Of a stretch of DNA of 64,000 nt, positions 1 to 64,000 are shown piece by piece. The translations under genes were made by a program, and so were the position numbers. The stretch's first letter is position 1. The number at the start of each line of letters is the position of its first letter. This stretch comes from Loxodes magnus (Eukaryota > Ciliophora > Karyorelictea > Loxodida > Loxodidae), in the NCBI GenBank assembly GCA_946699065.1, contig CAMPDV010000106.1, forward strand, positions 1-64,000. Direction: 5' to 3'. The notes below the pieces were generated by a model that saw nothing but the letters and a program-made list of their open reading frames with translations, ran no database searches and was not told the origin of the DNA.

Positions 1-20
1 ACAGCATATACCTAATTTGT

Positions 21-1745
21 GTAACCACTCATGGTCTTAAAGGTACCAGTCTTGACGTCCCATAGTCTCACCGTCTAATCTAAACTTCCCGATACGATGA
101 ACTCTGAATTACTGGATATAGCCACAGCATATACCTAATTTGTGTGACCACTCATGGTCTTACAGGTACCTGTAATGACGTCCCATAGTCTCACCGTCTA
201 ATCTACACTTCCCGATACGATGAACTCTGAATTACTGGATATAGCCACAGATCTTACATAACTAGTGTGACCACTCATGGTCTTACAGGTACCTGTCTTG
301 ACGTCCCATAGTCTCACCGTCTAATCTACACTTCCCGATACGATGAACTCTGAATTACTGGATATAGCCACAGATCTTACATAACTAGTGTGACCACTCA
401 TGGTCTTACAGGTACCAGTCTTGACGTCCCATAGTCTCACCGTCTAATCTACACTTCCCGATACGATGAACTCTGAATTACTGGATATAGCCACAGCATA
501 TACATAACTAGTGTGACCACTCATGGTCTTACAGGTACCTGTCTTGACGTCCCATAGTCTCACCGTCAAATCTACACTTCCCGATACGATGAACTCTGAA
601 TTACTGGATATAGCCACAGCAGATACCTAATTTGTGTGACCACTCATGGTCTTAAAGGTACCAGTCTTGACGTCCCATAGTCTCACCGTCTAATCTACAC
701 TTCCCGATACGATGAACTCTGAATTACTGGATATAGCCACAGCATATACATAACTAGTGTGACCACTCATGGTCTTACAGGTACCTGTTTTGACGTCCCA
801 TAGTCTCACCGTCTAATCTAAACTTCCCGATACGATGAACTCTGAATTACTGGATATAGCCACAGCATATACCTAATGTGTGTGACCACTCATGGTCTTA
901 CAGGTACCTGTCTTGACGTCCCATAGTCTCACCGTCTAATCTACACTTCCCGATACGATGAACTCTGAATTACTGGATATAGCCACAGATCTTACATAAC
1001 TAGTGTGACCACTCATGGTCTTACAGGTACCTGTCTTGACGTCCCATAGTCTCACCGTCTAATCTACACTTCCCGATACGATGAACTCTGAATTACTGGA
1101 TATAGCCACAGATCTTACATAACTAGTGTGACCACTCATGGTCTTACAGGTACCTGTCTTGACGTCCCATAGTCTCACCGTCTAATCTACACTTCCCGAT
1201 ACGATGAACTCTGAATTACTGGATATAGCCACAGCATATACATAATGTGTGTGACCACTCATGGTCTTACAGGTACCTGTCTTGACGTCCCATAGTCTCA
1301 CCGTCTAATCATAACTTCCCGATACGATGAACTCTGAATCACTGGATATAGCCACAGCATATACCTAATTTGTGTAACCACTCATGGTCTTAAAGGTACC
1401 AGTCTTGACGTCCCATAGTCTCACCGTCTAATCTACACTTCCCGATACGATGAACTCTGAATTACTGGATATAGCCACAGCATATACCTAATTTGTGTGA
1501 CCACTCATGGTCTTACAGGTACCTGTCTTGACGTCCCATAGTCTCACCGTCTAATCTACACTTCCCGATACGATGAACTCTGAATTACTGGATATAGCCA
1601 CAGCATATACATAATGTGTGTGACCACTCATGGTCTTACAGGTACCTGTCTTGACGTCCCATAGTCTCACCGTCTAATCATAACTTCCCGATACGATGAA
1701 CTCTGAATCACTGGATATAGCCACAGCATATACCTAATTTGTGTA
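21..1745 (-). other. Three units with the tetrad His changed to Tyr
   Basis: H2 is TAC (plus-strand gta) at 21-23, 1,374-1,376 and 1,743-1,745, spaced exactly 11 and 3 units apart. All three are N4-TAG5, Phe37, ACT34 units. I did not see this change elsewhere, so it is a local duplication product. H2 is a structural tetrad residue, so the change would weaken a blade. Confidence 0.8.
520..531. repeat. 12 bp perfect palindrome, example of one per unit
   Basis: The sequence acaggtacctgt is its own reverse complement and recurs in many units at codons 34-37 (Thr-Gly-Thr-Cys); 529-540 is approximately this instance. The common variants accagt (silent ACT Thr34) and aaaggt (Phe37) break the symmetry, so only a fraction of units keep it. 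No function is evident. Confidence 0.5.
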
Positions 1746-2042
1746 ACCACTCATGGTCTTAAAGGTACCAGTCTTGACGTCCCATAGTCTCACCGTCTAA
1801 TCTAAACTTCCCGATACGATGAACTCTGAATCACTGGATATAGCCACAGCAGATACCTAATTTGTGTGACCACTCATGGTCTTACAGGTACCTGTCTTGA
1901 CGTCCCATAGTCTCACCGTCTAATCTAAACTTCCCGATACGATGAACTCTGAATTACTGGATATAGCCACAGCATATACCTAATTTGTGTGACCACTCAT
2001 GGTCTTAAAGGTACCTGTCTTGACGTCCCATAGTCTCACCGT

Positions 2043-2285
2043 CTAATCTACACTTCCCGATACGATGAACTCTGAATTACTGGATATAGCCACAGCATAT
2101 ACATAATGTGTGTGACCACTCATGGTCTTACAGGTACCTGTCTTGACGTCCCATAGTCTCACCGTCAAATCTACACTTCCCGATACGATGAACTCTGAAT
2201 TACTGGATATAGCCACAGATCTTACATAACTAGTGTGACCACTCATGGTCTTACAGGTACCAGTCTTGACGTCCCATAGTCTCAC
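2043..2285 (-). pseudogene. Stop-free WD40 segment, two units
   Basis: These 80 open codons pass through an Arg7-Ser8 unit (GTA AGA TCT) and a His4-Tyr5 unit. Bounded by TAG at residue 25. No start signal. Confidence 0.25.
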
Positions 2286-3026
2286 CGTCTAATCTACACT
2301 TCCCGATACGATGAACTCTGAATTACTGGATATAGCCACAGCAGATACCTAATGTGTGTGACCACTCATGGTCTTACAGGTACCTGTTTTGACGTCCCAT
2401 AGCCTCACCGTCTAATCTGCACTTCCCGATACGATGAACTCTGAATCACTGGATATAGCCACAGCAGATACCTAATTTGTGTGACCACTCATGGTCTTAC
2501 AGGTACCAGTCTTGACGTCCCATAGTCTCACCGTCTAATCTAAACTTCCCGATACGATGAACTCTGAATTACTGGATATAGCCACAGATCTTACATAACT
2601 AGTGTGACCACTCATGGTCTTACAGGTACCTGTTTTGACGTCCCATAGTCTCACCGTCTAATCTACACTTCCCGATACGATGAACTCTGAATTACTGGAT
2701 ATAGCCACAGCATATACATGATGTGTGTGACCACTCATGGTCTTACAGGTACCAGTCTTGACGTCCCATAGTCTCACCGTCTAATCTACACTTCCCGATA
2801 CGATGAACTCTGAATCACTGGATATAGCCACAGCAGATACCTAATGTGTGTGACCACTCATGGTCTTACAGGTACCTGTCTTGACGTCCCATAGTCTCAC
2901 CGTCAAATCTACACTTCCCGATACGATGAACTCTGAATCACTGGATATAGCCACAGCATATACATAATGTGTGTGACCACTCATGGTCTTACAGGTACCT
3001 GTCTTGACGTCCCATAGTCTCACCGT

Positions 3027-3269
3027 CTAATCTACACTTCCCGATACGATGAACTCTGAATTACTGGATATAGCCACAGCATATACATAACTAGTGTGAC
3101 CACTCATGGTCTTACAGGTACCAGTCTTGACGTCCCATAGTCTCACCGTCAAATCTACACTTCCAGATACGATGAACTCTGAATTACTGGATATAGCCAC
3201 AGCATATACATAACTAGTGTGACCACTCATGGTCTTACAGGTACCTGTCTTGACGTCCCATAGTCTCAC
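3027..3269 (-). pseudogene. Stop-free WD40 segment, two units
   Basis: These 80 open codons are in Ser4-Tyr5 units, with one TCT Ser20 codon (plus-strand ccagata near 3,163). A 60-codon open piece with the same phase lies next to it at 2,841-3,023, separated by one TAG. Confidence 0.25.
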
Positions 3270-6101
3270 CGTCTAATCTACACTTCCCGATACGATGAAC
3301 TCTGAATCACTGGATATAGCCACAGCAGATACCTAATTTGTGTGACCACTCATGGTCTTAAAGATACCTGTCTTGACGTCCCATAGTCTCACCGTCTAAT
3401 CTACACTTCCCGATACGATGAACTCTGAATTACTGGATATAGCCACAGCATATACATAATGTGTGTGACCACTCATGGTCTTACAGGTACCAGTCTTGAC
3501 GTCCCATAGTCTCACCGTCTAATCTGCACTTCCCGATACGATGAACTCTGAATTACTGGATATAGCCACAGCATATACATAATGTGTGTGACCACTCATG
3601 GTCTTACAGGTACCTGTCTTGACGTCCCATAGTCTCACCGTCAAATCTACACTTCCCGATACGATGAACTCTGAATTACTGGATATAGCCACAGCAGATA
3701 CCTAATGTGTGTGACCACTCATGGTCTTACAGGTACCTGTTTTGACGTCCCATAGTCTCACCGTCTAATCTAAACTTCCCGATACGATGAACTCTGAATT
3801 ACTGGATATAGCCACAGCATATACCTAATGTGTGTGACCACTCATGGTCTTACAGGTACCTGTCTTGACGTCCCATAGTCTCACCGTCTAATCTACACTT
3901 CCCGATACGATGAACTCTGAATTACTGGATATAGCCACAGCATATACCTAATGTGTGTGACCACTCATGGTCTTACAGGTACCTGTCTTGACGTCCCATA
4001 GTCTCACCGTCTAATCTACACTTCCCGATACGATGAACTCTGAATTACTGGATATAGCCACAGCATATACCTAATTTGTGTGACCACTCATGGTCTTACA
4101 GGTACCTGTCTTGACGTCCCATAGTCTCACCGTCTAATCTACACTTCCCGATACGATGAACTCTGAATCACTGGATATAGCCACAGCATATACATAATGT
4201 GTGTGACCACTCATGGTCTTACAGGTACCTGTCTTGACGTCCCATAGTCTCACCGTCTAATCTACACTTCCCGATACGATGAACTCTGAATTACTGGATA
4301 TAGCCACAGCATATACCTAATTTGTGTGACCACTCATGGTCTTACAGGTACCTGTCTTGACGTCCCATAGTCTCACCGTCTAATCTACACTTCCCGATAC
4401 GATGAACTCTGAATTACTGGATATAGCCACAGCAGATACCTAATGTGTGTGACCACTCATGGTCTTACAGGTACCTGTTTTGACGTCCCATAGTCTCACC
4501 GTCTAATCTACACTTCCCGATACGATGAACTCTGAATTACTGGATATAGCCACAGCATATACCTAATTTGTGTGACCACTCATGGTCTTACAGGTACCTG
4601 TCTTGACGTCCCATAGTCTCACCGTCTAATCTACACTTCCCGATACGATGAACTCTGAATTACTGGATATAGCCACAGCAGATACCTAATGTGTGTGACC
4701 ACTCATGGTCTTAAAGGTACCTGTCTTGACGTCCCATAGTCTCACCGTCTAATCTACACTTCCCGATACGATGAACTCTGAATTACTGGATATAGCCACA
4801 GCAGATACCTAATGTGTGTGACCACTCATGGTCTTACAGGTACCTGTTTTGACGTCCCATAGTCTCACCGTCTAATCTAAACTTCCCGATACGATGAACT
4901 CTGAATCACTGGATATAGCCACAGCATATACATAATGTGTGTGACCACTCATGGTCTTACAGGTACCTGTCTTGACGTCCCATAGTCTCACCGTCTAATC
5001 TACACTTCCCGATACGATGAACTCTGAATTACTGGATATAGCCACAGCATATACCTAATTTGTGTGACCACTCATGGTCTTACAGGTACCTGTCTTGACG
5101 TCCCATAGTCTCACCGTCTAATCTACACTTCCCGATACGATGAACTCTGAATCACTGGATATAGCCACAGCAGATACCTAATTTGTGTGACCACTCATGG
5201 TCTTAAAGGTACCTGTCTTGACGTCCCATAGTCTCACCGTCTAATCTACACTTCCCGATACGATGAACTCTGAATTACTGGATATAGCCACAGCATATAC
5301 ATAATGTGTGTGACCACTCATGGTCTTACAGGTACCTGTCTTGACGTCCCATAGTCTCACCGTCTAATCTACACTTCCCGATACGATGAACTCTGAATCA
5401 CTGGATATAGCCACAGCATATACCTAATTTGTGTGACCACTCATGGTCTTACAGGTACCAGTCTTGACGTCCCATAGTCTCACCGTCTAATCTACACTTC
5501 CCGATACGATGAACTCTGAATTACTGGATATAGCCACAACAGATACCTAATTTGTGTGACCACTCATGGTCTTACAGGTACCTGTCTTGACGTCCCATAG
5601 TCTCACCGTCTAATCTACACTTCCCGATACGATGAACTCTGAATTACTGGATATAGCCACAGCAGATACCTAATGTGTGTGACCACTCATGGTCTTACAG
5701 GTACCTGTTTTGACGTCCCATAGTCTCACCGTCTAATCTAAACTTCCCGATACGATGAACTCTGAATTACTGGATATAGCCACAGCATATACCTAATGTG
5801 TGTGACCACTCATGGTCTTACAGGTACCAGTCTTGACGTCCCATAGTCTCACCGTCTAATCTAAACTTCCCGATACGATGAACTCTGAATCACTGGATAT
5901 AGCCACAGCAGATACCTAATTTGTGTGACCACTCATGGTCTTACAGGTACCTGTCTTGACGTCCCATAGTCTCACCGTCTAATCTACACTTCCCGATACG
6001 ATGAACTCTGAATTACTGGATATAGCCACAGATCTTACATAACTAGTGTGACCACTCATGGTCTTACAGGTACCTGTCTTGACGTCCCATAGTCTCACCG
6101 T

Positions 6102-6344
6102 CTAATCATAACTTCCCGATACGATGAACTCTGAATTACTGGATATAGCCACAGCATATACATAATGTGTGTGACCACTCATGGTCTTACAGGTACCTGT
6201 CTTGACGTCCCATAGTCTCACCGTCAAATCTACACTTCCCGATACGATGAACTCTGAATTACTGGATATAGCCACAGCATATACATAATGTGTGTGACCA
6301 CTCATGGTCTTACAGGTACCTGTTTTGACGTCCCATAGTCTCAC
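6102..6344 (-). pseudogene. Stop-free WD40 segment, two units
   Basis: These 80 open codons are in His4-Tyr5 units, ending in a Tyr23 unit whose residue 25 is TAG. This is the Tyr23-Asp24-TAG state, one base away from the Tyr23-Asp24-Lys25 state common after 15.9 kb. Confidence 0.25.
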
Positions 6345-7280
6345 CGTCTAATCTAAACTTCCCGATACGATGAACTCTGAATCACTGGATATAGCCACAG
6401 CAGATACCTAATGTGTGTGACCACTCATGGTCTTACAGGTACCAGTCTTGACGTCCCATAGTCTCACCGTCTAATCTACACTTCCCGATACGATGAACTC
6501 TGAATTACTGGATATAGCCACAGCATATACATAACTAGTGTGACCACTCATGGTCTTACAGGTACCTGTCTTGACGTCCCATAGTCTCACCGTCTAATCT
6601 ACACTTCCCGATACGATGAACTCTGAATCACTGGATATAGCCACAGATCTTACATAACTAGTGTGACCACTCATGGTCTTACAGGTACCAGTCTTGACGT
6701 CCCATAGTCTCACCGTCTAATCTACACTTCCCGATACGATGAACTCTGAATTACTGGATATAGCCACAGCATATACCTAATTTGTGTGACCACTCATGGT
6801 CTTACAGGTACCTGTCTTGACGTCCCATAGTCTCACCGTCTAATCTACACTTCCCGATACGATGAACTCTGAATTACTGGATATAGCCACAGCATATACC
6901 TAATTTGTGTGACCACTCATGGTCTTACAGGTACCTGTCTTGACGTCCCATAGTCTCACCGTCTAATCTACACTTCCCGATACGATGAACTCTGAATCAC
7001 TGGATATAGCCACAGCAGATACCTAATTTGTGTGACCACTCATGGTCTTAAAGGTACCTGTCTTGACGTCCCATAGTCTCACCGTCTAATCTACACTTCC
7101 CGATACGATGAACTCTGAATTACTGGATATAGCCACAGATCTTACATAACTAGTGTGACCACTCATGGTCTTACAGGTACCTGTCTTGACGTCCCATAGT
7201 CTCACCGTCTAATCATAACTTCCCGATACGATGAACTCTGAATTACTGGATATAGCCACAGCATAAACATAATGTGTGTG

Positions 7281-7292
7281 ACCACATTGGTC
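7281..7292 (-). other. Short unit 1: one-base loss, frameshift
   Basis: Plus-strand ccacattggtc replaces the usual ccactcatggtc, so ATG AGT GGT becomes AATGTGGT and the frame shifts after Thr39. The shifted frame always meets TGA, because the invariant ACG-GTG-AGA is read as CGG-TGA. The nearest unit upstream has the cataaacat (Tyr7-to-Phe-like) variant with Cys37. Confidence 0.9.
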
Positions 7293-7305
7293 TTACAGGT
7301 ACCTG

Positions 7306-8472
7306 TCTTGACGTCCCATAGTCTCACCGTCAAATCTACACTTCCCGATACGATGAACTCTGAATTACTGGATATAGCCACAGCATATACCTAATTTGTG
7401 TGACCACTCATGGTCTTACAGGTACCTGTCTTGACGTCCCATAGTCTCACCGTCTAATCTACACTTCCCGATACGATGAACTCTGAATTACTGGATATAG
7501 CCACAGCAGATACCTAATGTGTGTGACCACTCATGGTCTTAAAGGTACCTGTCTTGACGTCCCATAGTCTCACCGTCTAATCTACACTTCCCGATACGAT
7601 GAACTCTGAATTACTGGATATAGCCACAGCAGATACCTAATGTGTGTGACCACTCATGGTCTTACAGGTACCTGTTTTGACGTCCCATAGTCTCACCGTC
7701 TAATCTAAACTTCCCGATACGATGAACTCTGAATCACTGGATATAGCCACAGCATATACATAATGTGTGTGACCACTCATGGTCTTACAGGTACCTGTCT
7801 TGACGTCCCATAGTCTCACCGTCTAATCTACACTTCCCGATACGATGAACTCTGAATTACTGGATATAGCCACAGCATATACCTAATTTGTGTGACCACT
7901 CATGGTCTTAAAGGTACCTGTCTTGACGTCCCATAGTCTCACCGTCAAATCTACACTTCCCGATACGATGAACTCTGAATTACTGGATATAGCCACAGCA
8001 TATACCTAATTTGTGTGACCACTCATGGTCTTACAGGTACCTGTCTTGACGTCCCATAGTCTCACCGTCTAATCTACACTTCCCGATACGATGAACTCTG
8101 AATTACTGGATATAGCCACAGCAGATACCTAATGTGTGTGACCACTCATGGTCTTAAAGGTACCTGTCTTGACGTCCCATAGTCTCACCGTCTAATCTAC
8201 ACTTCCCGATACGATGAACTCTGAATTACTGGATATAGCCACAGCAGATACCTAATGTGTGTGACCACTCATGGTCTTACAGGTACCTGTTTTGACGTCC
8301 CATAGTCTCACCGTCTAATCTAAACTTCCCGATACGATGAACTCTGAATCACTGGATATAGCCACAGCATATACATAATGTGTGTGACCACTCATGGTCT
8401 TACAGGTACCTGTCTTGACGTCCCATAGTCTCACCGTCTAATCTACACTTCCCGATACGATGAACTCTGAAT
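7306..8472 (-). repeat. Five-unit (615 bp) tandem duplication
   Basis: Sequence from about 7,306 to 7,857 matches about 7,921 to 8,472 at offset 615, including the order of the His4-TAG5 / Phe37 unit and the AAA Lys33 unit. The same unit order also occurs at about 4,560-5,030. Confidence 0.7.
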
Positions 8473-9421
8473 CACTGGATATAGCCACAGCATATACATA
8501 ATGTGTGTGACCACTCATGGTCTTACAGGTACCTGTCTTGACGTCCCATAGTCTCACCGTCTAATCTAAACTTCCCGATACGATGAACTCTGAATCACTG
8601 GATATAGCCACAGCATATACATAATGTGTGTGACCACTCATGGTCTTACAGGTACCTGTCTTGACGTCCCATAGTCTCACCGTCTAATCTACACTTCCCG
8701 ATACGATGAACTCTGAATCACTGGATATAGCCACAGCAGATACCTAATTTGTGTGACCACTCATGGTCTTAAAGGTACCTGTCTTGACGTCCCATAGTCT
8801 CACCGTCTAATCTACACTTCCCGATACGATGAACTCTGAATTACTGGATATAGCCACAGCATATACATAATGTGTGTGACCACTCATGGTCTTACAGGTA
8901 CCTGTCTTGACGTCCCATAGTCTCACCGTCTAATCTACACTTCCCGATACGATGAACTCTGAATCACTGGATATAGCCACAGCATATACCTAATTTGTGT
9001 GACCACTCATGGTCTTACAGGTACCAGTCTTGACGTCCCATAGTCTCACCGTCTAATCTACACTTCCCGATACGATGAACTCTGAATCACTGGATATAGC
9101 CACAGCAGATACCTAATTTGTGTGACCACTCATGGTCGTAAAGGTACCAGTCTTGACGTCCCATAGTCTCACCGTCTAATCTACACTTCCCGATACGATG
9201 AACTCTGAATTACTGGATATAGCCACAGATCTTACATAACTAGTGTGACCACTCATGGTCTTACAGGTACCAGTCTTGACGTCCCATAGTCTCACCGTCT
9301 AATCTACACTTCCCGATACGATGAACTCTGAATTACTGGATATAGCCACAGCATAAACATAATTAGTGTGACCACTCATGGTCTTACAGGTACCTGTCTT
9401 GACGTCCCATAGTCTCACCGT

Positions 9422-9910
9422 CTAATCTGCACTTCCCGATACGATGAACTCTGAATTACTGGATATAGCCACAGCATATACATAACTAGTGTGACCACTC
9501 ATGGTCTTACAGGTACCTGTCTTGACGTCCCATAGTCTCACCGTCAAATCTACACTTCCCGATACATTGAACTCTGAATTACTGGATATAGCCACAGCAT
9601 AAACATAACTAGTGTGACCACTCATGGTCTTACAGGTACCTGTCTTGACGTCCCATAGTCTCACCGTCAAATCTACACTTCCCGATACGATGAACTCTGA
9701 ATTACTGGATATAGCCACAGCATAAACATAACTAGTGTGACCACTCATGGTCTTACAGGTACCAGTCTTGACGTCCCATAGTCTCACCGTCAAATCTAAA
9801 CTTCCCGATACGATGAACTCTGAATCACTGGATATAGCCACAGCATATACATAACTAGTGTGACCACTCATGGTCTTACAGGTACCTGTCTTGACGTCCC
9901 ATAGTCTCAC
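9422..9910 (-). pseudogene. Stop-free WD40 segment, four units
   Basis: This is 162 codons without a stop under the standard code. Residue 5 is TAT in every unit, mostly in the Ser4-Tyr5-Val6-Tyr7 form, and residue 25 is Leu (TTG). One unit carries an Ile18-to-Asn change at about 9,565 that is not seen elsewhere. It is bounded on both sides by TAG at residue 25. All four units keep H2, D24, T26 and W30. Confidence 0.3.
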
Positions 9911-11092
9911 CGTCTAATCTACACTTCCCGATACGATGAACTCTGAATTACTGGATATAGCCACAGCATATACATAATGTGTGTGACCACTCATGGTCTT
10001 ACAGGTACCTGTCTTGACGTCCCATAGTCTCACCGTCTAATCTGCACTTCCCGATACGATGAACTCTGAATTACTGGATATAGCCACAGATCTTACATAA
10101 CTAGTGTGACCACTCATGGTCTTACAGGTACCTGTCTTGACGTCCCATAGTCTCACCGTCTAATCTACACTTCCCGATACGATGAACTCTGAATTACTGG
10201 ATATAGCCACAGCATATACATAACTAGTGTGACCACTCATGGTCTTACAGGTACCTGTCTTGACGTCCCATAGTCTCACCGTCAAATCTACACTTCCCGA
10301 TACGATGAACTCTGAATTACTGGATATAGCCACAGCAGATACCTAATTTGTGTGACCACTCATGGTCTTAAAGGTACCAGTCTTGACGTCCCATAGTCTC
10401 ACCGTCTAATCTACACTTCCCGATACGATGAACTCTGAATTAAAGGATATAGCCACAGCATAAACATAATTTGTGTGACCACTCATGGTCTTACAGGTAC
10501 CAGTCTTGACGTCCCATAGTCTCACCGTCTAATCTACACTTCCCGATACGATGAACTCTGAATTACTGGATATAGCCACAGCATATACCTAATTTGTGTG
10601 ACCACTCATGGTCTTACAGGTACCTGTCTTGACGTCCCATAGTCTCACCGTCTAATCTACACTTCCCGATACGATGAACTCTGAATCACTGGATATAGCC
10701 ACAGCATATACATAACTAGTGTGACCACTCATGGTCTTACAGGTACCTGTCTTGACGTCCCATAGTCTCACCGTCTAATCTACACTTCCCGATACGATGA
10801 ACTCTGAATCACTGGATATAGCCACAGCAGATACCTAATTTGTGTGACCACTCATGGTCTTAAAGGTACCAGTCTTGACGTCCCATAGTCTCACCGTCTA
10901 ATCTGCACTTCCCGATACGATGAACTCTGAATCACTGGATATAGCCACAGCATATACCTAATTTGTGTGACCACTCATGGTCTTAAAGGTACCAGTCTTG
11001 ACGTCCCATAGTCTCACCGTCTAATCTACACTTCCCGATACGATGAACTCTGAATCACTGGATATAGCCACAGCAGATACCTAATTTGTGTG

Positions 11093-11104
11093 ACCACATT
11101 GGTC
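11093..11104 (-). other. Short unit 2: one-base loss, frameshift
   Basis: Same allele, here on an N4-TAG5 unit with the AAA Lys33 codon typical of the first 12.5 kb. It therefore sits on a background not shared by the other copies. Confidence 0.9.
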
Positions 11105-21411: not shown

Positions 21412-21531
<120 letters not shown>

Positions 21532-23133: not shown

Positions 23134-23253
<120 letters not shown>

Positions 23254-50644: not shown

Positions 50645-51213
50645 GAATTAAAGGATATAGCCACAGCAGATACCTAATTTGTGTGACCACTCATGGTCTT
50701 ACAGGTACCTGTCTTGACGTCCCATAGTCTCACCGTCTAATCTACACTTCCCGATACGATGAACTCTGAATTACTGGATATAGCCACAGCATATACCTAA
50801 TTTGTGTGACCACTCATGGTCTTACAGGTACCAGTCTTGACGTCCCATAGTCTCACCGTCTAATCTACACTTCCCGATACGATGAACTCTGAATTAAAGG
50901 ATATAGCCACAGCAGATACCTAATTTGTGTGACCACTCATGGTCTTACAGGTACCAGTCTTGACGTCCCATAGCCTCACCGTCTAATCTAAACTTCCCGA
51001 TACGATGAACTCTGAATCACTGGATATAGCCACAGCAGATACCTAATTTGTGTGACCACTCATGGTCTTAAAGGTACCAGTCTTGACGTCCCATAGTCTC
51101 ACCGTCTAATCTACACTTCCCGATACGATGAACTCTGAATTACTGGATATAGCCACAGCAGATACATAACTAGTGTGACCACTCATGGTCTTACAGGTAC
51201 CTGTCTTGACGTC

Positions 51214-51216
51214 TCA
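51214..51216 (-). other. In-frame TGA replacing the WD tryptophan (third copy)
   Basis: Same change, but in a gatacataac Ser4-Tyr5 unit with no short unit nearby. It is the only TGA I found in the WD40 frame between 36,677 and 53,760. Confidence 0.88.
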
Positions 51217-52212
51217 TAGTCTCACCGTCTAATCTACACTTCCCGATACGATGAACTCTGAATCACTGGATATAGCCACAGCAGATACCTAATTTGTGTG
51301 ACCACTCATGGTCTTACAGGTACCAGTCTTGACGTCCCATAGTCTCACCGTCTAATCTAAACTTCCCGATACGATGAACTCTGAATTACTGGATATAGCC
51401 ACAGCATATACCTAATTTGTGTGACCACTCATGGTCTTACAGGTACCTGTCTTGACGTCCCATAGTCTCACCGTCTAATCTACACTTCCCGATACGATGA
51501 ACTCTGAATCACTGGATATAGCCACAGCAGATACCTAATTTGTGTGACCACTCATGGTCTTACAGGTACCTGTCTTGACGTCCCATAGCCTCACCGTCTA
51601 ATCTAAACTTCCCGATACGATGAACTCTGAATCACTGGATATAGCCACAGCAGATACCTAATTTGTGTGACCACTCATGGTCTTAAAGGTACCAGTCTTG
51701 ACGTCCCATAGTCTCACCGTCTAATCTACACTTCCCGATACGATGAACTCTGAATCACTGGATATAGCCACAGCAGATACCTAATTTGTGTGACCACTCA
51801 TGGTCTTACAGGTACCTGTCTTGACGTCCCATAGTCTCACCGTCAAATCTACACTTCCCGATACGATGAACTCTGAATCACTGGATATAGCCACAGCATA
51901 TACATAACTAGTGTGACCACTCATGGTCTTACAGGTACCTGTCTTGACGTCCCATAGTCTCACCGTCTAATCTACACTTCCCGATACGATGAACTCTGAA
52001 TCACTGGATATAGCCACAGCAGATACCTAATTTGAGTGACCACTCATGGTCTTACAGGTACCTGTCTTGACGTCCCATAGTCTCACCGTCTTATCATAAC
52101 TTCCCGATACGATGAACTCTGAATTACTGGATATAGCCACAGCATATACATAACTAGTGTGACCACTCATGGTCTTACAGGTACCTGTCTTGACGTCCCA
52201 TAGTCTCACCGT

Positions 52213-52578
52213 CTAATCTACACTTCCCGATACGATGAACTCTGAATTACTGGATATAGCCACTGCACATACATAACTAGTGTGACCACTCATGGTCTTA
52301 CAGGTACCTGTCTTGACGTCCCATAGTCTCACCGTCAAATCTGCACTTCCCGATACGATGAACTCTGAATTACTGGATATAGCCACAGCATATACATAAT
52401 GTGTGTGACCACTCATAGTCTTACAGCTACCTGTCTTGACGTCCCATAGTCTCACCGTCAAATCTACACTTCCCGATACGATGAACTCTGAATTACTGGA
52501 TATAGCCACAGATCTTACATAACTAGTGTGACCACTCATGGTCTTACAGGTACCTGTCTTGACGTCCCATAGTCTCAC
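52213..52578 (-). pseudogene. Stop-free WD40 segment, three units
   Basis: This is 121 codons in the same frame as the 262-codon segment, separated from it by a single TAG at residue 25 (52,579-52,581), and it ends at a TAG at 52,210-52,212. It contains private changes: a Thr36-to-Ser change with an ACT Thr39 (about 52,411-52,430) and a Cys7 unit. Those singletons suggest this island has escaped recent homogenisation. It begins at GTG Val27, so no real start exists. Confidence 0.3.
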
Positions 52579-52581
52579 CGT

Positions 52582-53370
52582 CTAATCTACACTTCCCGAT
52601 ACGATGAACTCTGAATTACTGGATATAGCCACAGCATATACATAATGTGTGTGACCACTCATGGTCTTACAGGTACCTGTCTTGACGTCCCATAGTCTCA
52701 CCGTCTTATCATAACTTCCCGATACGATGAACTCTGAATTACTGGATATAGCCACAGCATAAACATAATTTGTGTGACCACTCATGGTCTTACAGGTACC
52801 TGTCTTGACGTCCCATAGTCTCACCGTCAAATCTACACTTCCCGATACGATGAACTCTGAATTACTGGATATAGCCACAGCATATACATAATGTGTGTGA
52901 CCACTCATGGTCTTACAGGTACCTGTCTTGACGTCCCATAGTCTCACCGTCTTATCATAACTTCCCGATACGATGAACTCTGAATCACTGGATATAGCCA
53001 CAGCACATACATAACTAGTGTGACCACTCATGGTCTTACAGGTACCTGTCTTGACGTCCCATAGTCTCACCGTCAAATCTACACTTCCCGATACGATGAA
53101 CTCTGAATTACTGGATATAGCCACAGCATATACATAATGTGTGTGACCACTCATGGTCTTACAGGTACCAGTCTTGACGTCCCATAGTCTCACCGTCAAA
53201 TCTACACTTCCCGATACGATGAACTCTGAATTACTGGATATAGCCACAGCATATACATAACTAGTGTGACCACTCATGGTCTTACAGGTACCTGTCTTGA
53301 CGTCCCATAGTCTCACCGTCAAATCTAAACTTCCCGATACGATGAACTCTGAATCACTGGATATAGCCAC
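52582..53370 (-). CDS. Longest stop-free WD40 segment (262 codons, ~6.4 blades)
   Basis: Six and a half consecutive units are open here under the standard code, the longest open stretch in the window. Residue 5 is always TAT except in one N4-Y5 unit that is also sense, and residue 25 is TTG (Leu) or AAG (Lys, always with Tyr23). All tetrad residues H2, D24, T26 and W30 are intact. It is bounded by a TAG at residue 5 just upstream (53,377-53,379) and a TAG at residue 25 just downstream (52,579-52,581). The nominal first codon is the GTG of Val9, not a credible start, and there is no upstream regulatory sequence, so it is an open fragment rather than a gene. It may preserve the ancestral coding form of the unit. 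Together with 52,213-52,578 it nearly gives ten clean units. Confidence 0.3.
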   Translation of the reverse strand: MAISSDSEFIVSGSLDLTVRLWDVKTGTCKTMSGHTSYVYAVAISSNSEFIVSGSVDLTVRLWDVKTGTCKTMSGHTHYVYAVAISSNSEFIVSGSVDLTVRLWDVKTGTCKTMSGHTSYVCAVAISSDSEFIVSGSYDKTVRLWDVKTGTCKTMSGHTHYVYAVAISSNSEFIVSGSVDLTVRLWDVKTGTCKTMSGHTNYVYAVAISSNSEFIVSGSYDKTVRLWDVKTGTCKTMSGHTHYVYAVAISSNSEFIVSGSVD

Positions 53371-53760
53371 AGCAGATACCTAATTTGTGTGACCACTCAT
53401 GGTCTTACAGGTACCTGTCTTGACGTCCCATAGTCTCACCGTCAAATCTACACTTCCCGATACGATGAACTCTGAATTACTGGATATAGCCACAGCATAT
53501 ACATAACTAGTGTGACCACTCATTGTCTTACAGGTACCAGTCTTGACGTCCCATAGTCTCACCGTCTAATCTACACTTCCCGATACGATGAACTCTGAAT
53601 CACTGGATATAGCCACAGCATATACATAATGTGTGTGACCACTCATGGTCTTACAGGTACCTGTCTTGACGTCCCATAGTCTCACCGTCAAATCTACACT
53701 TCCCGATACGATGAACTCTGAATTACTGGATATAGCCACAGCATAAACATAATGTGTGTG

Positions 53761-53772
53761 ACCACATTGGTC
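53761..53772 (-). other. Short unit 15: one-base loss, frameshift
   Basis: The cataaacat / Phe37 haplotype. It closes the 17 kb constant-phase stretch. Confidence 0.9.
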
Positions 53773-56700
53773 TTAAAGGTACCTGTCTTGACGTCCCATA
53801 GTCTCACCGTCTAATCTACACTTCCCGATACGATGAACTCTGAATTACTGGATATAGCCACAGCATATACCTAATTTGTGTGACCACTCATGGTCTTAAA
53901 GGTACCAGTCTTGACGTCCCATAGTCTCACCGTCTAATCTGCACTTCCCGATACGATGAACTCTGAATCACTGGATATAGCCACAGCACATACCTAATTT
54001 GTGTGACCACTCATGGTCTTAAAGGTACCAGTCTTGACGTCCCATAGTCTCACCGTCTAATCTACACTTCCCGATACGATGAACTCTGAATCACTGGATA
54101 TAGCCACAGCATATACATGATGTGTGTGACCACTCATGGTCTTACAGGTACCTGTCTTGACGTCCCATAGTCTCACCGTCTAATCTACACTTCCCGATAC
54201 GATGAACTCTGAATCACTGGATATAGCCACAGCAGATACCTAATTTGTGTGACCACTCATGGTCTTAAAGGTACCAGTCTTGACGTCCCATAGTCTCACC
54301 GTCTAATCTACACTTCCCGATACGATGAACTCTGAATCACTGGATATAGCCACAGCATATACCTAATTTGTGTGACCACTCATGGTCTTACAGGTACCTG
54401 TCTTGACGTCCCATAGTCTCACCGTCTAATCTACACTTCCCGATACGATGAACTCTGAATCACTGGATATAGCCACAGCATATACATAACTAGTGTGACC
54501 ACTCATGGTCTTACAGGTACCAGTCTTGACGTCCCATAGTCTCACCTTCTAATCTGCACTTCCCGATACGATGAACTCTGAATTACTGGATATAGCCACA
54601 GCATATACATGATGTGTGTGACCTCTCATGGTCTTACAGGTACCTGTCTTGACGTCCCATAGTCTCACCTTCTAATCTGCACTTCCCGATACGATGAACT
54701 CTGAATTACTGGATATAGCCACAGCATATACATGATGTGTGTGACCACTCATGGTCTTACAGGTACCAGTCTTGACGTCCCATAGTCTCACCGTCTAATC
54801 TACACTTCCCGATACGATGAACTCTGAATCACTGGATATAGCCACAGCAGATACCTAATTTGTGTGACCACTCATGGTCTTACAGGTACCTGTCTTGACG
54901 TCCCATAGTCTCACCGTCAAATCTACACTTCCCGATACGATGAACTCTGAATTACTGGATATAGCCACAGCAGATACCTAATGTGTGTGACCACTCATGG
55001 TCTTACAGGTACCTGTCTTGACGTCCCATAGTCTCACCGTCTAATCTACACTTCCCGATACGATGAACTCTGAATCACTGGATATAGCCACAGCAGATAC
55101 CTAATTTGAGTGACCACTCATGGTCTTACAGGTACCTGTCTTGACGTCCCATAGTCTCACCGTCTAATCTGCACTTCCCGATACGATGAACTCTGAATCA
55201 CTGGATATAGCCACAGCATATACATGATGTGTGTGACCACTCATGGTCTTACAGGTACCTGTCTTGACGTCCCATAGTCTCACCGTCTAATCTAAACTTC
55301 CCGATACGATGAACTCTGAATCACTGGATATAGCCACAGCATATACATAATGTGTGTGACCACTCATGGTCTTACAGGTACCTGTCTTGACGTCCCATAG
55401 TCTCACCGTCTAATCTACACTTCCCGATACGATGAACTCTGAATCACTGGATATAGCCACAGCATATACATGATGTGTGTGACCACTCATGGTCTTACAG
55501 GTACCTGTCTTGACGTCCCATAGTCTCACCGTCTAATCTGCACTTCCCGATACGATGAACTCTGAATCACTGGATATAGCCACAGCAGATACCTAATTTG
55601 TGTGACCACTCATGGTCTTAAAGGTACCAGTCTTGACGTCCCATAGTCTCACCGTCTAATCTACACTTCCCGATACGATGAACTCTGAATTACTGGATAT
55701 AGCCACAGCAGATACCTAATTTGTGTGACCACTCATGGTCTTAAAGGTACCAGTCTTGACGTCCCATAGTCTCACCTTCTAATCTACACTTCCCGATACG
55801 ATGAACTCTGAATCACTGGATATAGCCACAGCAGATACCTAATTTGTGTGACCACTCATGGTCTTACAGGTACCTGTCTTGACGTCCCATAGTCTCACCG
55901 TCAAATCTACACTTCCCGATACGATGAACTCTGAATTACTGGATATAGCCACAGCATATACATAACTAGTGTGACCACTCATGGTCTTACAGGTACCTGT
56001 CTTGACGTCCCATAGTCTCACCTTCTAATCTGCACTTCCCGATACGATGAACTCTGAATTACTGGATATAGCCACAGCATATACATGATGTGTGTGACCA
56101 CTCATGGTCTTACAGGTACCAGTCTTGACGTCCCATAGTCTCACCGTCTAATCTGCACTTCCCGATACGATGAACTCTGAATCACTGGATATAGCCACAG
56201 CAGATACCTAATTTGTGTGACCACTCATGGTCTTAAAGGTACCAGTCTTGACGTCCCATAGTCTCACCGTCTAATCTACACTTCCCGATACGATGAACTC
56301 TGAATTACTGGATATAGCCACAGCATATACATAACTAGTGTGACCACTCATGGTCTTACAGGTACCTGTCTTGACGTCCCATAGTCTCACCTTCTAATCT
56401 GCACTTCCCGATACGATGAACTCTGAATTACTGGATATAGCCACAGCATATACATGATGTGTGTGACCACTCATGGTCTTACAGGTACCAGTCTTGACGT
56501 CCCATAGTCTCACCGTCTAATCTGCACTTCCCGATACGATGAACTCTGAATCACTGGATATAGCCACAGCACATACCTAATTTGTGTGACCACTCATGGT
56601 CTTAAAGGTACCAGTCTTGACGTCCCATAGTCTCACCGTCAAATCTACACTTCCCGATACGATGAACTCTGAATTACTGGATATAGCCACAGCAGATACC

Positions 56701-57326
56701 TAATTTGTGTGACCACTCATGGTCTTACAGGTACCAGTCTTGACGTCCCATAGTCTCACCGTCTAATCTACACTTCCCGATACGATGAACTCTGAATTAC
56801 TGGATATAGCCACAGCATATACCTAATTTGTGTGACCACTCATGGTCTTAAAGGTACCAGTCTTGACGTCCCATAGTCTCACCGTCTAATCTACACTTCC
56901 CGATACGATGAACTCTGAATTACTGGATATAGCCACAGCATAAACATAATGTGTGTGACCACTCATGGTCTTACAGGTACCTGTCTTGACGTCCCATAGT
57001 CTCACCTTCTAATCTGCACTTCCCGATACGATGAACTCTGAATTACTGGATATAGCCACAGCATATACCTAATTTGTGTGACCACTCATGGTCTTACAGG
57101 TACCAGTCTTGACGTCCCATAGTCTCACCGTCTAATCTACACTTCCCGATACGATGAACTCTGAATTACTGGATATAGCCACAGAACTTACATAACTAGT
57201 GTGACCACTCATGGTCTTACAGGTACCTGTCTTGACGTCCCATAGTCTCACCGTCAAATCTACACTTCCCGATACGATGAACTCTGAATTACTGGATATA
57301 GCCACAGCATAAACATAATGTGTGTG

Positions 57327-57338
57327 ACCACATTGGTC
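57327..57338 (-). other. Short unit 16: one-base loss, frameshift
   Basis: The cataaacat / Phe37 haplotype. The flanking units are near copies of those at 53.7 and 60.4 kb. Confidence 0.9.
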
Positions 57339-60300
57339 TTAAAGGTACCTGTCTTGACGTCCCATAGTCTCACCGTCTAATCTACACTTCCCGATACGAT
57401 GAACTCTGAATTACTGGATATAGCCACAGCATATACCTAATTTGTGTGACCACTCATGGTCTTAAAGGTACCAGTCTTGACGTCCCATAGTCTCACCGTC
57501 TAATCTACACTTCCCGATACGATGAACTCTGAATCACTGGATATAGCCACAGCAGATACCTAATTTGTGTGACCACTCATGGTCTTACAGGTACCAGTCT
57601 TGACGTCCCATAGTCTCACCGTCTAATCTACACTTCCCGATACGATGAACTCTGAATTACTGGATATAGCCACAGCAGATACCTAATTTGTGTGACCACT
57701 CATGGTCTTACAGGTACCTGTCTTGACGTCCCATAGCCTCACCGTCTAATCTGCACTTCCCGATACGATGAACTCTGAATCACTGGATATAGCCACAGCA
57801 GATACCTAATTTGTGTGACCACTCATGGTCTTAAAGGTACCAGTCTTGACGTCCCATAGTCTCACCGTCTAATCTAAACTTCCCGATACGATGAACTCTG
57901 AATTACTGGATATAGCCACAGATCTTACATAACTAGTGTGACCACTCATGGTCTTACAGGTACCTGTCTTGACGTCCCATAGTCTCACCGTCTAATCTGC
58001 ACTTCCCGATACGATGAACTCTGAATTACTGGATATAGCCACAGCATATACATGATGTGTGTGACCACTCATGGTCTTACAGGTACCAGTCTTGACGTCC
58101 CATAGTCTCACCGTCTAATCTACACTTCCCGATACGATGAACTCTGAATTACTGGATATAGCCACAGCATATACATGATGTGTGTGACCACTCATGGTCT
58201 TACAGGTACCAGTCTTGACGTCCCATAGTCTCACCGTCTAATCTACACTTCCCGATACGATGAACTCTGAATCACTGGATATAGCCACAGCAGATACCTA
58301 ATGTGTGTGACCACTCATGGTCTTACAGGTACCTGTCTTGACGTCCCATAGTCTCACCGTCTAATCTACACTTCCCGATACGATGAACTCTGAATCACTG
58401 GATATAGCCACAGCATATACCTAATTTGTGTGACCACTCATGGTCTTACAGGTACCAGTCTTGACGTCCCATAGTCTCACCGTCTAATCTACACTTCCCG
58501 ATACGATGAACTCTGAATCACTGGATATAGCCACAGCATATACATAACTAGTGTGACCACTCATGGTCTTACAGGTACCTGTCTTGACGTCCCATAGTCT
58601 CACCGTCTAATCTACACTTCCCGATACGATGAACTCTGAATCACTGGATATAGCCACAGCAGATACCTAATTTGTGTGACCACTCATGGTCTTACAGGTA
58701 CCTGTCTTGACGTCCCATAGTCTCACCTTCTAATCTGCACTTCCCGATACGATGAACTCTGAATTACTGGATATAGCCACAGCATATACATGATGTGTGT
58801 GACCACTCATTGTCTTACAGGTACCAGTCTTGACGTCCCATAGTCTCACCGTCTAATCTACACTTCCCGATACGATGAACTCTGAATCACTGAATATAGC
58901 CACAGCATATACATAATGTGTGTGACCACTCATGGTCTTACAGGTACCTGTCTTGACGTCCCATAGTCTCACCGTCTAATCTGCACTTCCCGATACGATG
59001 AACTCTGAATCACTGGATATAGCCACAGCAGATACCTAATTTGAGTGACCACTCATGGTCTTACAGGTACCTGTCTTGACGTCCCATAGTCTCACCGTCT
59101 AATCTACACTTCCCGATACGATGAACTCTGAATTACTGGATATAGCCACAGCATATACCTAATTTGTGTGACCACTCATGGTCTTACAGGTACCAGTCTT
59201 GACGTCCCATAGTCTCACCGTCTAATCTACACTTCCCGATACGATGAACTCTGAATTAAAGGATATAGCCACAGCAGATACCTAATTTGTGTGACCACTC
59301 ATGGTCTTACAGGTACCTGTCTTGACGTCCCATAGTCTCACCGTCTAATCTACACTTCCCGATACGATGAACTCTGAATTACTGGATATAGCCACAGCAG
59401 ATACCTAATTTGTGTGACCACTCATGGTCTTACAGGTACCTGTCTTGACGTCCCATAGCCTCACCGTCTAATCTAAACTTCCCGATACGATGAACTCTGA
59501 ATCACTGGATATAGCCACAGCAGATACCTAATTTGTGTGACCACTCATGGTCTTAAAGGTACCAGTCTTGACGTCCCATAGTCTCACCGTCTAATCTACA
59601 CTTCCCGATACGATGAACTCTGAATCACTGGATATAGCCACAGCATATACATAATGTGTGTGACCACTCATGGTCTTACAGGTACCTGTCTTGACGTCCC
59701 ATAGTCTCACCGTCTAATCTACACTTCCCGATACGATGAACTCTGAATCACTGGATATAGCCACAGCAGATACCTAATTTGTGTGACCACTCATGGTCTT
59801 ACAGGTACCAGTCTTGACGTCCCATAGTCTCACCGTCTAATCTAAACTTCCCGATACGATGAACTCTGAATTACTGGATATAGCCACAGCATATACCTAA
59901 TTTGTGTGACCACTCATGGTCTTAAAGGTACCAGTCTTGACGTCCCATAGTCTCACCGTCAAATCTACACTTCCCGATACGATGAACTCTGAATTACTGG
60001 ATATAGCCACAGCAGATACCTAATTTGTGTGACCACTCATGGTCTTACAGGTACCAGTCTTGACGTCCCATAGTCTCACCGTCTAATCTACACTTCCCGA
60101 TACGATGAACTCTGAATTACTGGATATAGCCACAGCATATACCTAATTTGTGTGACCACTCATGGTCTTAAAGGTACCAGTCTTGACGTCCCATAGTCTC
60201 ACCGTCTAATCTACACTTCCCGATACGATGAACTCTGAATTACTGGATATAGCCACAGATCTTACATAACTAGTGTGACCACTCATGGTCTTACAGGTAC

Positions 60301-60400
60301 CTGTCTTGACGTCCCATAGTCTCACCGTCAAATCTACACTTCCCGATACGATGAACTCTGAATTACTGGATATAGCCACAGCATAAACATAATGTGTGTG

Positions 60401-60412
60401 ACCACATTGGTC
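60401..60412 (-). other. Short unit 17: one-base loss, frameshift
   Basis: The cataaacat / Phe37 haplotype, preceded in minus-strand order by the His4-His5 open segment. Confidence 0.9.
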
Positions 60413-60450
60413 TTAAAGGTACCTGTCTTGACGTCCCATAGTCTCACCGT

Positions 60451-60693
60451 CTAATCTACACTTCCCGATACGATGAACTCTGAATTACTGGATATAGCCA
60501 CAGCATATACATGATGTGTGTGACCACTCATGGTCTTACAGGTACCTGTCTTGACGTCCCATAGTCTCACCGTCAAATCTAAACTTCCCGATACGATGAA
60601 CTCTGAATCACTGGATATAGCCACAGCATATACATGATGTGTGTGACAACTCATGGTCTTACAGGTACCTGTCTTGACGTCCCATAGTCTCAC
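60451..60693 (-). pseudogene. Stop-free WD40 segment, His4-His5 type
   Basis: These 80 codons have residue 5 as CAT (His) in both units. One unit has Gly1 changed to Cys (TGT, near 60,647), which would disrupt the conserved Gly-His turn. It lies just upstream, in minus-strand order, of the short unit at 60,401. Confidence 0.25.
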
Positions 60694-60942
60694 CGTCTAA
60701 TCTACACTTCCCGATACGATGAACTCTGAATCACTGGATATAGCCACAGCATATACCTAATTTGTGTGACCACTCATGGTCTTACAGGTACCTGTCTTGA
60801 CGTCCCATAGTCTCACCGTCTAATCATAACTTCCCGATACGATGAACTCTGAATTACTGGATATAGCCACAGCATATACCTAATTTGTGTGACCACTCAT
60901 GGTCTTACAGGTACCTGTCTTGACGTCCCATAGTCTCACCGT

Positions 60943-61185
60943 CTAATCTACACTTCCCGATACGATGAACTCTGAATCACTGGATATAGCCACAGCATAT
61001 ACATAATGTGTGTGACCACTCATGGTCTTACAGGTACCTGTCTTGACGTCCCATAGTCTCACCGTCAAATCTACACTTCCCGATACGATGAACTCTGAAT
61101 CACTGGATATAGCCACAGCATATACATAACTAGTGTGACCTCTCATGGTCTTACAGGTACCTGTCTTGACGTCCCATAGTCTCAC
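60943..61185 (-). pseudogene. Stop-free WD40 segment, two units
   Basis: These 80 codons include one unit where Ser41 is Arg (AGA, plus-strand acctctcat near 61,139), a change also present at about 54,612 and 62,860. It lies only one TAG away from the next open segment at 61,189. Confidence 0.25.
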
Positions 61186-61188
61186 CTT

Positions 61189-61554
61189 CTAATCTGCACT
61201 TCCCGATACGATGAACTCTGAATCACTGGATATAGCCACAGCATATACATAATGTGTGTGACCACTCATGGTCTTACAGGTACCTGTCTTGACGTCCCAT
61301 AGTCTCACCGTCTTATCATAACTTCCCGATACGATGAACTCTGAATCACTGGATATAGCCACAGCACATACATAACTAGTGTGACCACTCATGGTCTTAC
61401 AGGTACCTGTCTTGACGTCCCATAGTCTCACCGTCAAATCTACACTTCCCGATACGATGAACTCTGAATTACTGGATATAGCCACAGCATATACATAATG
61501 TGTGTGACCACTCATGGTCTTACAGGTACCTGTCTTGACGTCCCATAGTCTCAC
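61189..61554 (-). pseudogene. Stop-free WD40 segment, three units
   Basis: These 121 codons comprise a His4-Tyr5 unit, a Leu25 unit, a Cys7 unit and a Tyr23-Lys25 unit. Cys7 (TGT, plus-strand acatac) is a rare state also found in the 52.2-53.4 kb island, which suggests a shared source. Bounded by TAG at residue 25 on each side. Confidence 0.28.
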
Positions 61555-61803
61555 CGTCTAATCTACACTTCCCGATACGATGAACTCTGAATTACTGGAT
61601 ATAGCCACAGCAGATACCTAATTTGTGTGACCACTCATGGTCTTACAGGTACCTGTCTTGACGTCCCATAGTCTCACCGTCTAATCTACACTTCCCGATA
61701 CGATGAACTCTGAATCACTGGATATAGCCACAGCATATACATAATGTGTGTGACCACTCATGGTCTTACAGGTACCTGTCTTGACGTCCCATAGTCTCAC
61801 CGT

Positions 61804-62046
61804 CTAATCTACACTTCCCGATACGATGAACTCTGAATTACTGGATATAGCCACAGCACATACATAACTAGTGTGACCACTCATGGTCTTACAGGTACCT
61901 GTCTTGACGTCCCATAGTCTCACCGTCTTATCATAACTTCCCGATACGATGAACTCTGAATTACTGGATATAGCCACAGCATATACATAATGTGTGTGAC
62001 CACTCATGGTCTTACAGGTACCTGTCTTGACGTCCCATAGTCTCAC
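61804..62046 (-). pseudogene. Stop-free WD40 segment, two units
   Basis: These 80 codons contain a Tyr23-Lys25 unit and a Cys7 unit, the same rare states as in the 61.2 and 52.6 kb open segments. TAG codons bound it on both sides. Confidence 0.25.
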
Positions 62047-62355
62047 CGTCTAATCTAAACTTCCCGATACGATGAACTCTGAATTACTGGATATAGCCAC
62101 AGCACATACCTAATTTGTGTGACCACTCATGGTCTTACAGGTACCAGTCTTGACGTCCCATAGTCTCACCGTCTAATCTACACTTCCCGATACGATGAAC
62201 TCTGAATCACTGGATATAGCCACAGCATATACATAATGCTTGTGACCACTCATGGTCTTACAGGTACCTGTCTTGACGTCCCATAGTCTCACCGTCTAAT
62301 CTACACTTCCCGATACGATGAACTCTGAATTACTGGATATAGCCACAGCAGATAC

Positions 62356-62661
62356 CTAATTTGTGTGACCACTCATGGTCTTAAAGATACCTGTCTTGAC
62401 GTCCCATAGTCTCACCGTCTTATCATAACTTCCCGATACGATGAACTCTGAATTACTGGATATAGCCACAGCATATACATAATGTGTGTGACCACTCATT
62501 GTCTTACAGGTACCTGTCTTGACGTCCCATAGTCTCACCGTCAAATCTACACTTCCAGATACGATGAACTCTGAATTACTGGATATAGCCACAGCATATA
62601 CATAACTAGTGTGACCACTCATGGTCTTACAGGTACCTGTCTTGACGTCCCATAGTCTCAC
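62356..62661 (-). pseudogene. Distant copy of the Ile36-Phe37 segment
   Basis: These 101 codons have the same translation as 37,759-38,064 about 24.6 kb away, including Ile36-Phe37 in the last unit and the TCT Ser20 codon. The spacing is 200 units minus three bases, matching three short units in between. It is bounded by TAG on both sides. This shows transfer of a multi-unit block over tens of kilobases within the array. Confidence 0.3.
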
Positions 62662-63597
62662 CGTCTAATCTACACTTCCCGATACGATGAACTCTGAATC
62701 ACTGGATATAGCCACAGCAGATACCTAATTTGTGTGACCACTCATGGTCTTACAGGTACCTGTCTTGACGTCCCATAGTCTCACCTTCTAATCTGCACTT
62801 CCCGATACGATGAACTCTGAATTACTGGATATAGCCACAGCATATACATGATGTGTGTGACCTCTCATGGTCTTACAGGTACCTGTCTTGACGTCCCATA
62901 GTCTCACCTTCTAATCTGCACTTCCCGATACGATGAACTCTGAATTACTGGATATAGCCACAGCATATACATGATGTGTGTGACCACTCATGGTCTTACA
63001 GGTACCAGTCTTGACGTCCCATAGTCTCACCGTCTAATCTACACTTCCCGATACGATGAACTCTGAATCACTGGATATAGCCACAGCATATACATAATGT
63101 GTGTGACCACTCATGGTCTTACAGGTACCTGTCTTGACGTCCCATAGTCTCACCGTCTAATCTACACTTCCCGATACGATGAACTCTGAATCACTGGATA
63201 TATCCACAGCAGATACATAATGTGTGTGTCCACTCATGGTCTTACAGGTACCAGTCTTGACGTCCCATAGTCTCACCGTCTAATCTACACTTCCCGATAC
63301 GATGAACTCTGAATTACTGGATATAGCCACAGCAGATACCTAATGTGTGTGACCACTCATGGTCTTACAGGTACCTGTCTTGACGTCCCATAGTCTCACC
63401 GTCTAATCTACACTTCCCGATACGATGAACTCTGAATCACTGGATATAGCCACAGCATATACCTAATTTGTGTGACCACTCATGGTCTTACAGGTACCTG
63501 TCTTGACGTCCCATAGTCTCACCGTCAAATCTACACTTCCCGATACGATGAACTCTGAATCACTGGATATAGCCACAGCAGATACCTAATTTGTGTG

Positions 63598-63609
63598 ACC
63601 ACATTGGTC
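63598..63609 (-). other. Short unit 18: one-base loss, frameshift
   Basis: Same allele with Val23 and TAG25, like those at 34,453 and 36,665, about 27 kb away. Confidence 0.9.
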
Positions 63610-64000
63610 TTACAGGTACCTGTCTTGACGTCCCATAGTCTCACCGTCTAATCTACACTTCCCGATACGATGAACTCTGAATCACTGGATATAGCCACAG
63701 CATATACATAATGTGTGTGACCACTCATGGTCTTACAGGTACCTGTCTTGACGTCCCATAGTCTCACCGTCTAATCATAACTTCCCGATACGATGAACTC
63801 TGAATTACTGGATATAGCCACAGCATATACATAACTAGTGTGACCACTCATTGTCTTACAGGTACCAGTCTTGACGTCCCATAGTCTCACCGTCTAATCT
63901 AAACTTCCCGATACGATGAACTCTGAATTACTGGATATAGCCACAGCAGATACCTAATTTGTGTGACCACTCATGGTCTTACAGGTACCTGTCTTGACGT

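Follow-up and report, generated by a model that had tools for sequence, protein, structure and literature searches.

The 64-kb window analyzed here, the whole stretch of Loxodes magnus DNA from positions 1 to 64,000 of contig CAMPDV010000106.1, likely lies inside an untranslated WD40-derived megasatellite in which two nonsense alleles, both TAG, have been spread by exchange and duplication. One array fills the window:

1..64000, minus strand: tandem array of a 123-nt unit, running past both window ends (Tandem Repeats Finder, TRF; period 123, 520.5 copies, 95% matches)

In minus-strand translation, each 123-nt unit encodes one 41-residue WD40 repeat, arranged head to tail. Parsing of this strand yielded 519 whole units (126..63944), 501 of 123 nt and 18 of 122 nt, which comprised 204 haplotypes and differed from each other at a mean of 6.0 positions per 123 nt. 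This lies within the 80 to 100% within-locus repeat identity given in PMC12222747 and adopted here as the criterion for repeats of the NWD/HNWD type, known from Podospora anserina. No non-repeat sequence was found in the 64 kb by TRF or unit parsing, and hence there is no gene border in the window; it consists of repeat units only, with the array ends outside it, and no NACHT or effector domain on an open gene was found within it. Six standard-code frames of at least 100 amino acids (aa) were identified, every one on the minus strand, the longest being as follows:

52582..53370, minus strand: open frame of 262 aa from GTG, inside a TAG-poor island of the array

This open stretch, P0001, matched the Pfam WD40 family (PF00400; E value, 1.1e-67) in seven stretches, and its best match by sequence among solved structures was the WD40 protein 2ymu, a 14-repeat protein (PMC5587647).

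Codons were numbered within the unit such that codon 17 (D-x-T) and codon 38 (GHTN-x-V) correspond to residues 25 and 5, respectively, of the first-pass annotation of this DNA. The disabling changes identified were the following:

126..63944, minus strand: TAG at codon 17 (TAG17) in 421 of 519 units and at codon 38 (TAG38) in 306 of 519 (codon tallies)
26933..27055, minus strand: the sole in-frame TAG outside codons 17 and 38, at codon 8 (codon tallies)
51157..51279, 34923..35045, and 33941..34063, minus strand: TGA at the WD tryptophan codon, codon 22, in three units
28409..28531, minus strand: TGA at codon 40 in one unit
7260..63698 (first and last), minus strand: an identical −1 deletion in codon 32, in 18 units of 122 nt

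The remaining units carried TTG (n = 71), AAG (n = 26), or TAT (n = 1) at codon 17 and TAT (n = 196) or CAT (n = 17) at codon 38. TAG had previously been described as very frequent at these two residues, with the same alternative codons and without in-frame TAA, and the tallies bear this out; TAA was absent from all 21,279 codon positions (18 of these gapped), as were CAG and CAA. The further statement that TAG was confined to two codons holds for 727 of the 728 in-frame TAGs and fails for the one at codon 8. This TAG, the four in-frame TGAs, and the −1 deletion were absent from the first-pass annotation. An apparent TAT-to-TAA allele was not a real stop and belongs to an AGA codon.

Under the standard code, 484 of the 519 units contain an in-frame stop and 485 contain a stop or the deletion. 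A homogeneous tandem array exceeding 64 kb and disabled to this degree has the character of a satellite, presumably one that is not translated. Disabling changes unrelated to TAG have multiplied too, as the −1 deletion occurs on 10 backgrounds and the codon 22 TGA on three. When TAG was read as sense, the longest frames extended to 4,875, 2,430 (to the window end), and 2,202 codons. Given the 18 deletions and the lack of non-repeat sequence, the window is therefore unreadable as one protein whatever TAG means, and the presence of TAG needs no coding meaning.

Compared with an assumed ancestral unit without the two TAGs, single-base codon alleles comprised 4 nonsense, 28 missense, and 10 synonymous changes, the selection-free expectation being approximately 2.4 nonsense among 56 base changes. 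The existence of nonsense alleles is ordinary, but two of them are unusually frequent, and the periodic TAG pattern is certainly beyond chance. The missense-to-synonymous allele ratio was near neutral (0.86; 95% interval, 0.41 to 1.99) and spanned 0.57 to 0.96 over four codes and three thresholds, while differences between units were flat across the three codon positions (0.31, 0.35, and 0.34). For a coding control, 12 loci were searched by motif for at least four units in a 126-nt register, which only L001 provided; its differences lean to third positions (0.29, 0.23, and 0.47), although with units 45% different it is a weak control.

TAG17 and TAG38 are uncorrelated within units (r2 = 0.0027), and mean within-unit r2 decays with rising distance from 0.128 (1 to 5 bp) through 0.076, 0.042, and 0.014 to 0.013 (45 to 61 bp). 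Short-tract exchange has therefore reshuffled both alleles. All four combinations were present in 156 of 253 pairs of common variable columns. Adjacent units were no more similar than random ones (6.08 versus 6.02 differences; standard deviation, 0.085), differences were slightly lower at lags 2, 3, 5, and 20 (5.79 to 5.83) and lowest, of the lags printed, at lag 38 (5.54), and mean r2 between adjacent units was slightly higher than the null (0.0077 versus 0.0019). Thus, short-tract exchange appears extensive, with local copying present but weak. Copying on a larger scale and an uneven distribution of TAG were also identified:

45991..50418 and 41317..45744, minus strand: two exact copies of a 36-unit block, with 28 TAG17 and 23 TAG38 inside
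51895..53739, minus strand: TAG-poor island, 15 units with six TAG (shuffles of unit order)

In 200 shuffles of unit order, the longest exact run was 3 units, compared with the 36 observed. The block copies (4,428 nt) lie 38 units apart and could represent either a recent segmental duplication or an assembly duplicate. As for the island, the poorest 16 consecutive units hold seven TAG, a value not reached in any of 3,000 shuffles, and a run of six lesion-free units within it went beyond 5,000 shuffles. An invading nonsense allele would fit such a distribution. The island itself could be what is left of the founder gene, or it could have come in recently from an active copy.

The sequence context of the alleles was also considered. 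TAG38 is preceded at codon 37 by AAT or CAT and never by AGT, which fits a single origin. AAG at codon 17 was found only with TAT at codon 15 (26/26), and the codon 15 partners of TAG17 were GTA (n = 285), TTA (n = 65), GCA (n = 57), and TAT (n = 14); TTG at codon 17 may be parent or child of TAG. The simpler view offered in the first-pass annotation, that two nonsense alleles arose once each and were multiplied by unit duplication, is better supported than recoding, with the correction that short-tract exchange was involved as well. At codons 15 to 18 and 36 to 41, some alleles differ by three or four neighboring bases (TAT/GTA at codon 15; AGATCT/TATGCT at codons 40 and 41). Such differences are poorly explained by single point changes, older divergence and template switching being the alternatives.

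The placement of the common variants points to the kind of protein from which the array could derive. In HET-D/HET-E of Podospora, diversifying selection acts on codons 7, 9, 25, and 27, which are located on the binding face in pairs around conserved positions 8 and 26 (PMC1805685). By motif position (V of GHxxxV and D of SGSxD), we matched these to array codons 38, 40, 15, and 17, a matching of our own; three of the four take the places named R1-2, R1, and D-1 in the general scheme of WD40 hot spots (PMC3419727), and variation at hot spots in general is described for highly repetitive WD40 proteins (PMC5587647). Both common TAG codons are among these four face codons, all of which fall within the eight most diverse codons of the unit (P = 0.0007; with stops excluded, three of four, P = 0.019), P values here and below being descriptive only, because the cutoffs and the four-codon set were chosen after the clusters had been seen. 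The most diverse codon is codon 37, and codon 6 also ranks high; neither is a face codon. The codons between the pairs are nearly invariant, V39 varying only by synonymous GTT (14 units) and D16 by TAT (2 units). The unit offers 16 to 18 ways of reaching a stop in a single step, and 5 to 7 of these are at the four face codons, so the landing of both TAGs there by chance would not be far-fetched. The founder was probably a recognition-type WD40 protein. New and testable is that the array keeps recognition-type variation at binding-face codons, with both TAGs inside the pattern.

As the allele ratio test had low power, alleles were split by frequency and by WD40 conservation. Common alleles were defined as those with 10 or more copies, and the core as the 25 codons with information of ≥2.2 bits in a conservation profile of 171 near-full units (from 179 rows; 12 prokaryotic loci), in which codons 29 to 33, at or beyond the profile edge, were set by hand to unconserved. 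Of 21 common alleles, 9 were at the four face codons (P = 8e-5) and 3 were nonsynonymous at the core, against 45% expected (P = 0.003); leaving out the three events involving TAG, 6 of 18 were at face codons (P = 0.006). Among the 31 rare alleles, 11 were nonsynonymous at the core, not below the neutral 45% (P = 0.18), and 5 were at the face (P = 0.18). The direct contrast of common with rare was merely suggestive (Fisher P = 0.12). None of the nine common nonsynonymous alleles of the two triplets fell in the middle codons 16 and 39 (P = 0.026; without TAG events, 0/6, P = 0.088), and these empty middle codons weakly disfavor regional mutation in place of selection. In our reading, a working protein left its mark on older variation, and newer variation is without visible constraint.

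We propose that the satellite originated in the WD40-repeat portion of a gene whose product, the founder, was probably a highly repetitive recognition-type WD40 protein with repeats near-identical save at the partner-binding face. Unequal exchange involving large blocks, together with short-tract conversion from unit to unit, would have multiplied and reshuffled the copies. With translation no longer mattering, TAG17 and TAG38 would have appeared, each probably a single time, and would have reached 81% and 59% of units, respectively, by drift, while other lesions would have spread less (the −1 deletion to 18 units, TGA to 4, and the codon 8 TAG to 1).

Several observations weigh against this scenario. 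Among the 19 common alleles within TAG17 units, 3 were nonsynonymous at the core (P = 0.007) and 7 were at the face (P = 0.0015), a protein-filtered look that would be unexpected if these alleles arose after TAG17 in untranslated DNA; the scenario would require that they predate TAG17 and were reshuffled, or that they were imported. At codon 15, TTA (65/76) and GCA (57/59) occur almost only with TAG17 and never with AAG17. Apart from TAG, disabling alleles reach at most 18 of the 519 units, and only one type of indel was found. Finally, for alleles in at least three units, the missense-to-synonymous ratio was 0.61 (0.25 to 1.66), which is compatible with mild constraint.

In an alternative that we consider unlikely, TAG would have a sense meaning (Gln, Leu, Tyr, Glu, or another residue) and constitute one residue state at two hypervariable partner-binding positions. 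Such recoding would accord with the location of both common TAGs within the four face codons, with the protein-like pattern of common variation retained inside TAG17 units, with the 497 of 519 units that lack both TGA and the deletion and the want of any other common disabling allele, and with frames of up to 4,875 codons that are open once TAG is sense. There is also precedent among ciliates, in which UAG alone has become a codon for Leu or Gln (PMC11687900). Gln was the commonest residue at the codon 17 position of prokaryotic relatives (29/170) and was present at the codon 38 position (12/170), where Trp (39/170) and Arg (30/170) lead; the earlier suggestion that Gln is a plausible WD40 residue at both places is thus supported. 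On the other hand, the 18 deletions and four TGAs break the frame even with TAG as sense, and no gene border is available in 64 kb. TAG does not interchange with the synonymous codons of one amino acid, its alternatives encoding L, K, or Y at codon 17 and Y or H at codon 38; Tyr would suit codon 38 (TAT) and Leu codon 17 (TTG), and no residue suits both sets. Neither CAG, CAA, nor TAA accompanies TAG in the array, and the presence of the TAG-poor island is a further difficulty. No tRNA genes were identified in the 64-kb window, and hence no tRNA with a CUA anticodon there. Individual assignments were likewise assessed. Gln as the favored reading is weakened by the missing CAG, CAA, and TAA, the deletions, and TGA, and is retained as a rival; Tyr and Leu are each consistent mainly with the alternatives at a single site. 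TAG as Glu with TGA as Trp, a combination found in Blastocrithidia, was drawn from GAG/TAG at codon 8 and TGG/TGA at codon 22; it rests on one and three units, respectively, and leaves the deletions unexplained.

An improbable alternative is that the array is a silent reservoir, itself untranslated, that supplies WD40 units to an expressed recognition gene at another locus, whether TAG is a stop or not. Conversion to and from the expressed gene would keep the face diverse and the core conserved, in line with the extensive short-range exchange and with common alleles that spare the core and are enriched at the face despite the broken array. A parallel exists in Podospora, for which the authors of PMC1805685 propose that WD repeats of pseudogenes were replaced by repeats from active loci. 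However, with a stop or deletion in all but 34 of its units under the standard code (485/519 affected), the array would make a poor donor library unless TAG is sense, and it has no known acceptor gene. A version combining both alternatives, with TAG sense and one face state of a silent library of approximately 500 units, conversion rewriting the face of an expressed receptor, and selection there keeping common library alleles functional, seems more doubtful still. Overall, TAG as sense is unlikely, its chance being about that of recoding as such plus the sense-TAG share of the reservoir. An assembly or sequencing artifact behind the TAG pattern or the array is very improbable: the exact 36-unit repeat, the difficulty of assembling such arrays, and the precedent of a WD40 deletion judged a misassembly in one Podospora assembly (PMC12222747) would allow it, but the TAG alleles occur as substitutions in 155 and 109 different unit backgrounds, and random errors would yield neither alleles common to hundreds of units nor a single indel type.

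The array was compared with known systems and database relatives. The NWD/HNWD genes of P. anserina (het-d and het-e; pseudogenes NWDp1 and NWDp2) share with it near-identical WD40 repeats under concerted evolution and variation at the same four codons, two flanking a conserved V and two a conserved D (PMC1805685), and some of their alleles have repeats bearing stops or frameshifts (PMC12222747). They differ in having a NACHT domain, whereas the L. magnus array comprises no fewer than 519 units, is accompanied by no further domain in the window, and has stops in 484 of the units. NWD/HNWD genes carry about 3 to 14 repeats per gene. Eleven repeats are described for het-R and het-E1 (PMC2873952). 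Highly repetitive WD40 proteins are likewise highly identical internally and diverse at interaction hot spots (PMC5587647); they are encoded by open genes, which the array is not. With satellite DNA, the array shares great length, homogeneous head-to-tail arrangement, block duplication, and reshuffled variants, yet its monomer is still plainly a protein-coding repeat. Abundant in-frame TAG without TAA is also a feature of the UAG-reassigned codes (Leu or Gln) of phyllopharyngean ciliates; those were demonstrated across the genome, and two genomes have tRNAs with a CUA anticodon (PMC11687900), whereas here there is one broken repetitive locus. No WD40-derived satellite was named among the literature matches listed, which does not prove that none is in print.

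Unit DNA patterns had no matches in viral contigs or prokaryotic genome contigs, and BLASTN with 789 bases identified none in plasmids. Taken with the satellite form, these empty searches point, short of proof, to a eukaryotic source. The P0001 protein matched no viral contigs; its relatives were found at nine prokaryotic loci (29 to 44% identity), in 329 plasmid records (all <60%; best among the matches listed, 48.1%), and in two phage records (40.8% and 34.0%). One prokaryotic locus, from a Dependentiae metagenome-assembled genome (L008, 3410..4888), holds a gene of 492 aa whose 135-nt WD40 array (4.6 copies, 81% matches) includes one unit that is close to that of the window and has Tyr at the D-x-T position. 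No Rfam matches were identified in the window. Of three NCBIfam matches, two were under the cutoff, and the one over it, to the PIN-family toxin model TIGR00305, spans 21 residues only and was taken as chance similarity to the repeat sequence.

If recoding were true, the array would offer a new place for studying stop codon reassignment together with a very large recognition repertoire. If TAG is a stop here, the array is a warning against deducing a changed genetic code from a single repetitive locus, because exchange would have raised a nonsense allele to a share of 421 in 519 copies. If the array is an untranslated megasatellite, as appears likely, the repeat part of a protein gene has become a satellite of more than 64 kb whose common variants would still record the diversification of the founder protein, and the stages from gene to satellite could be placed in order.

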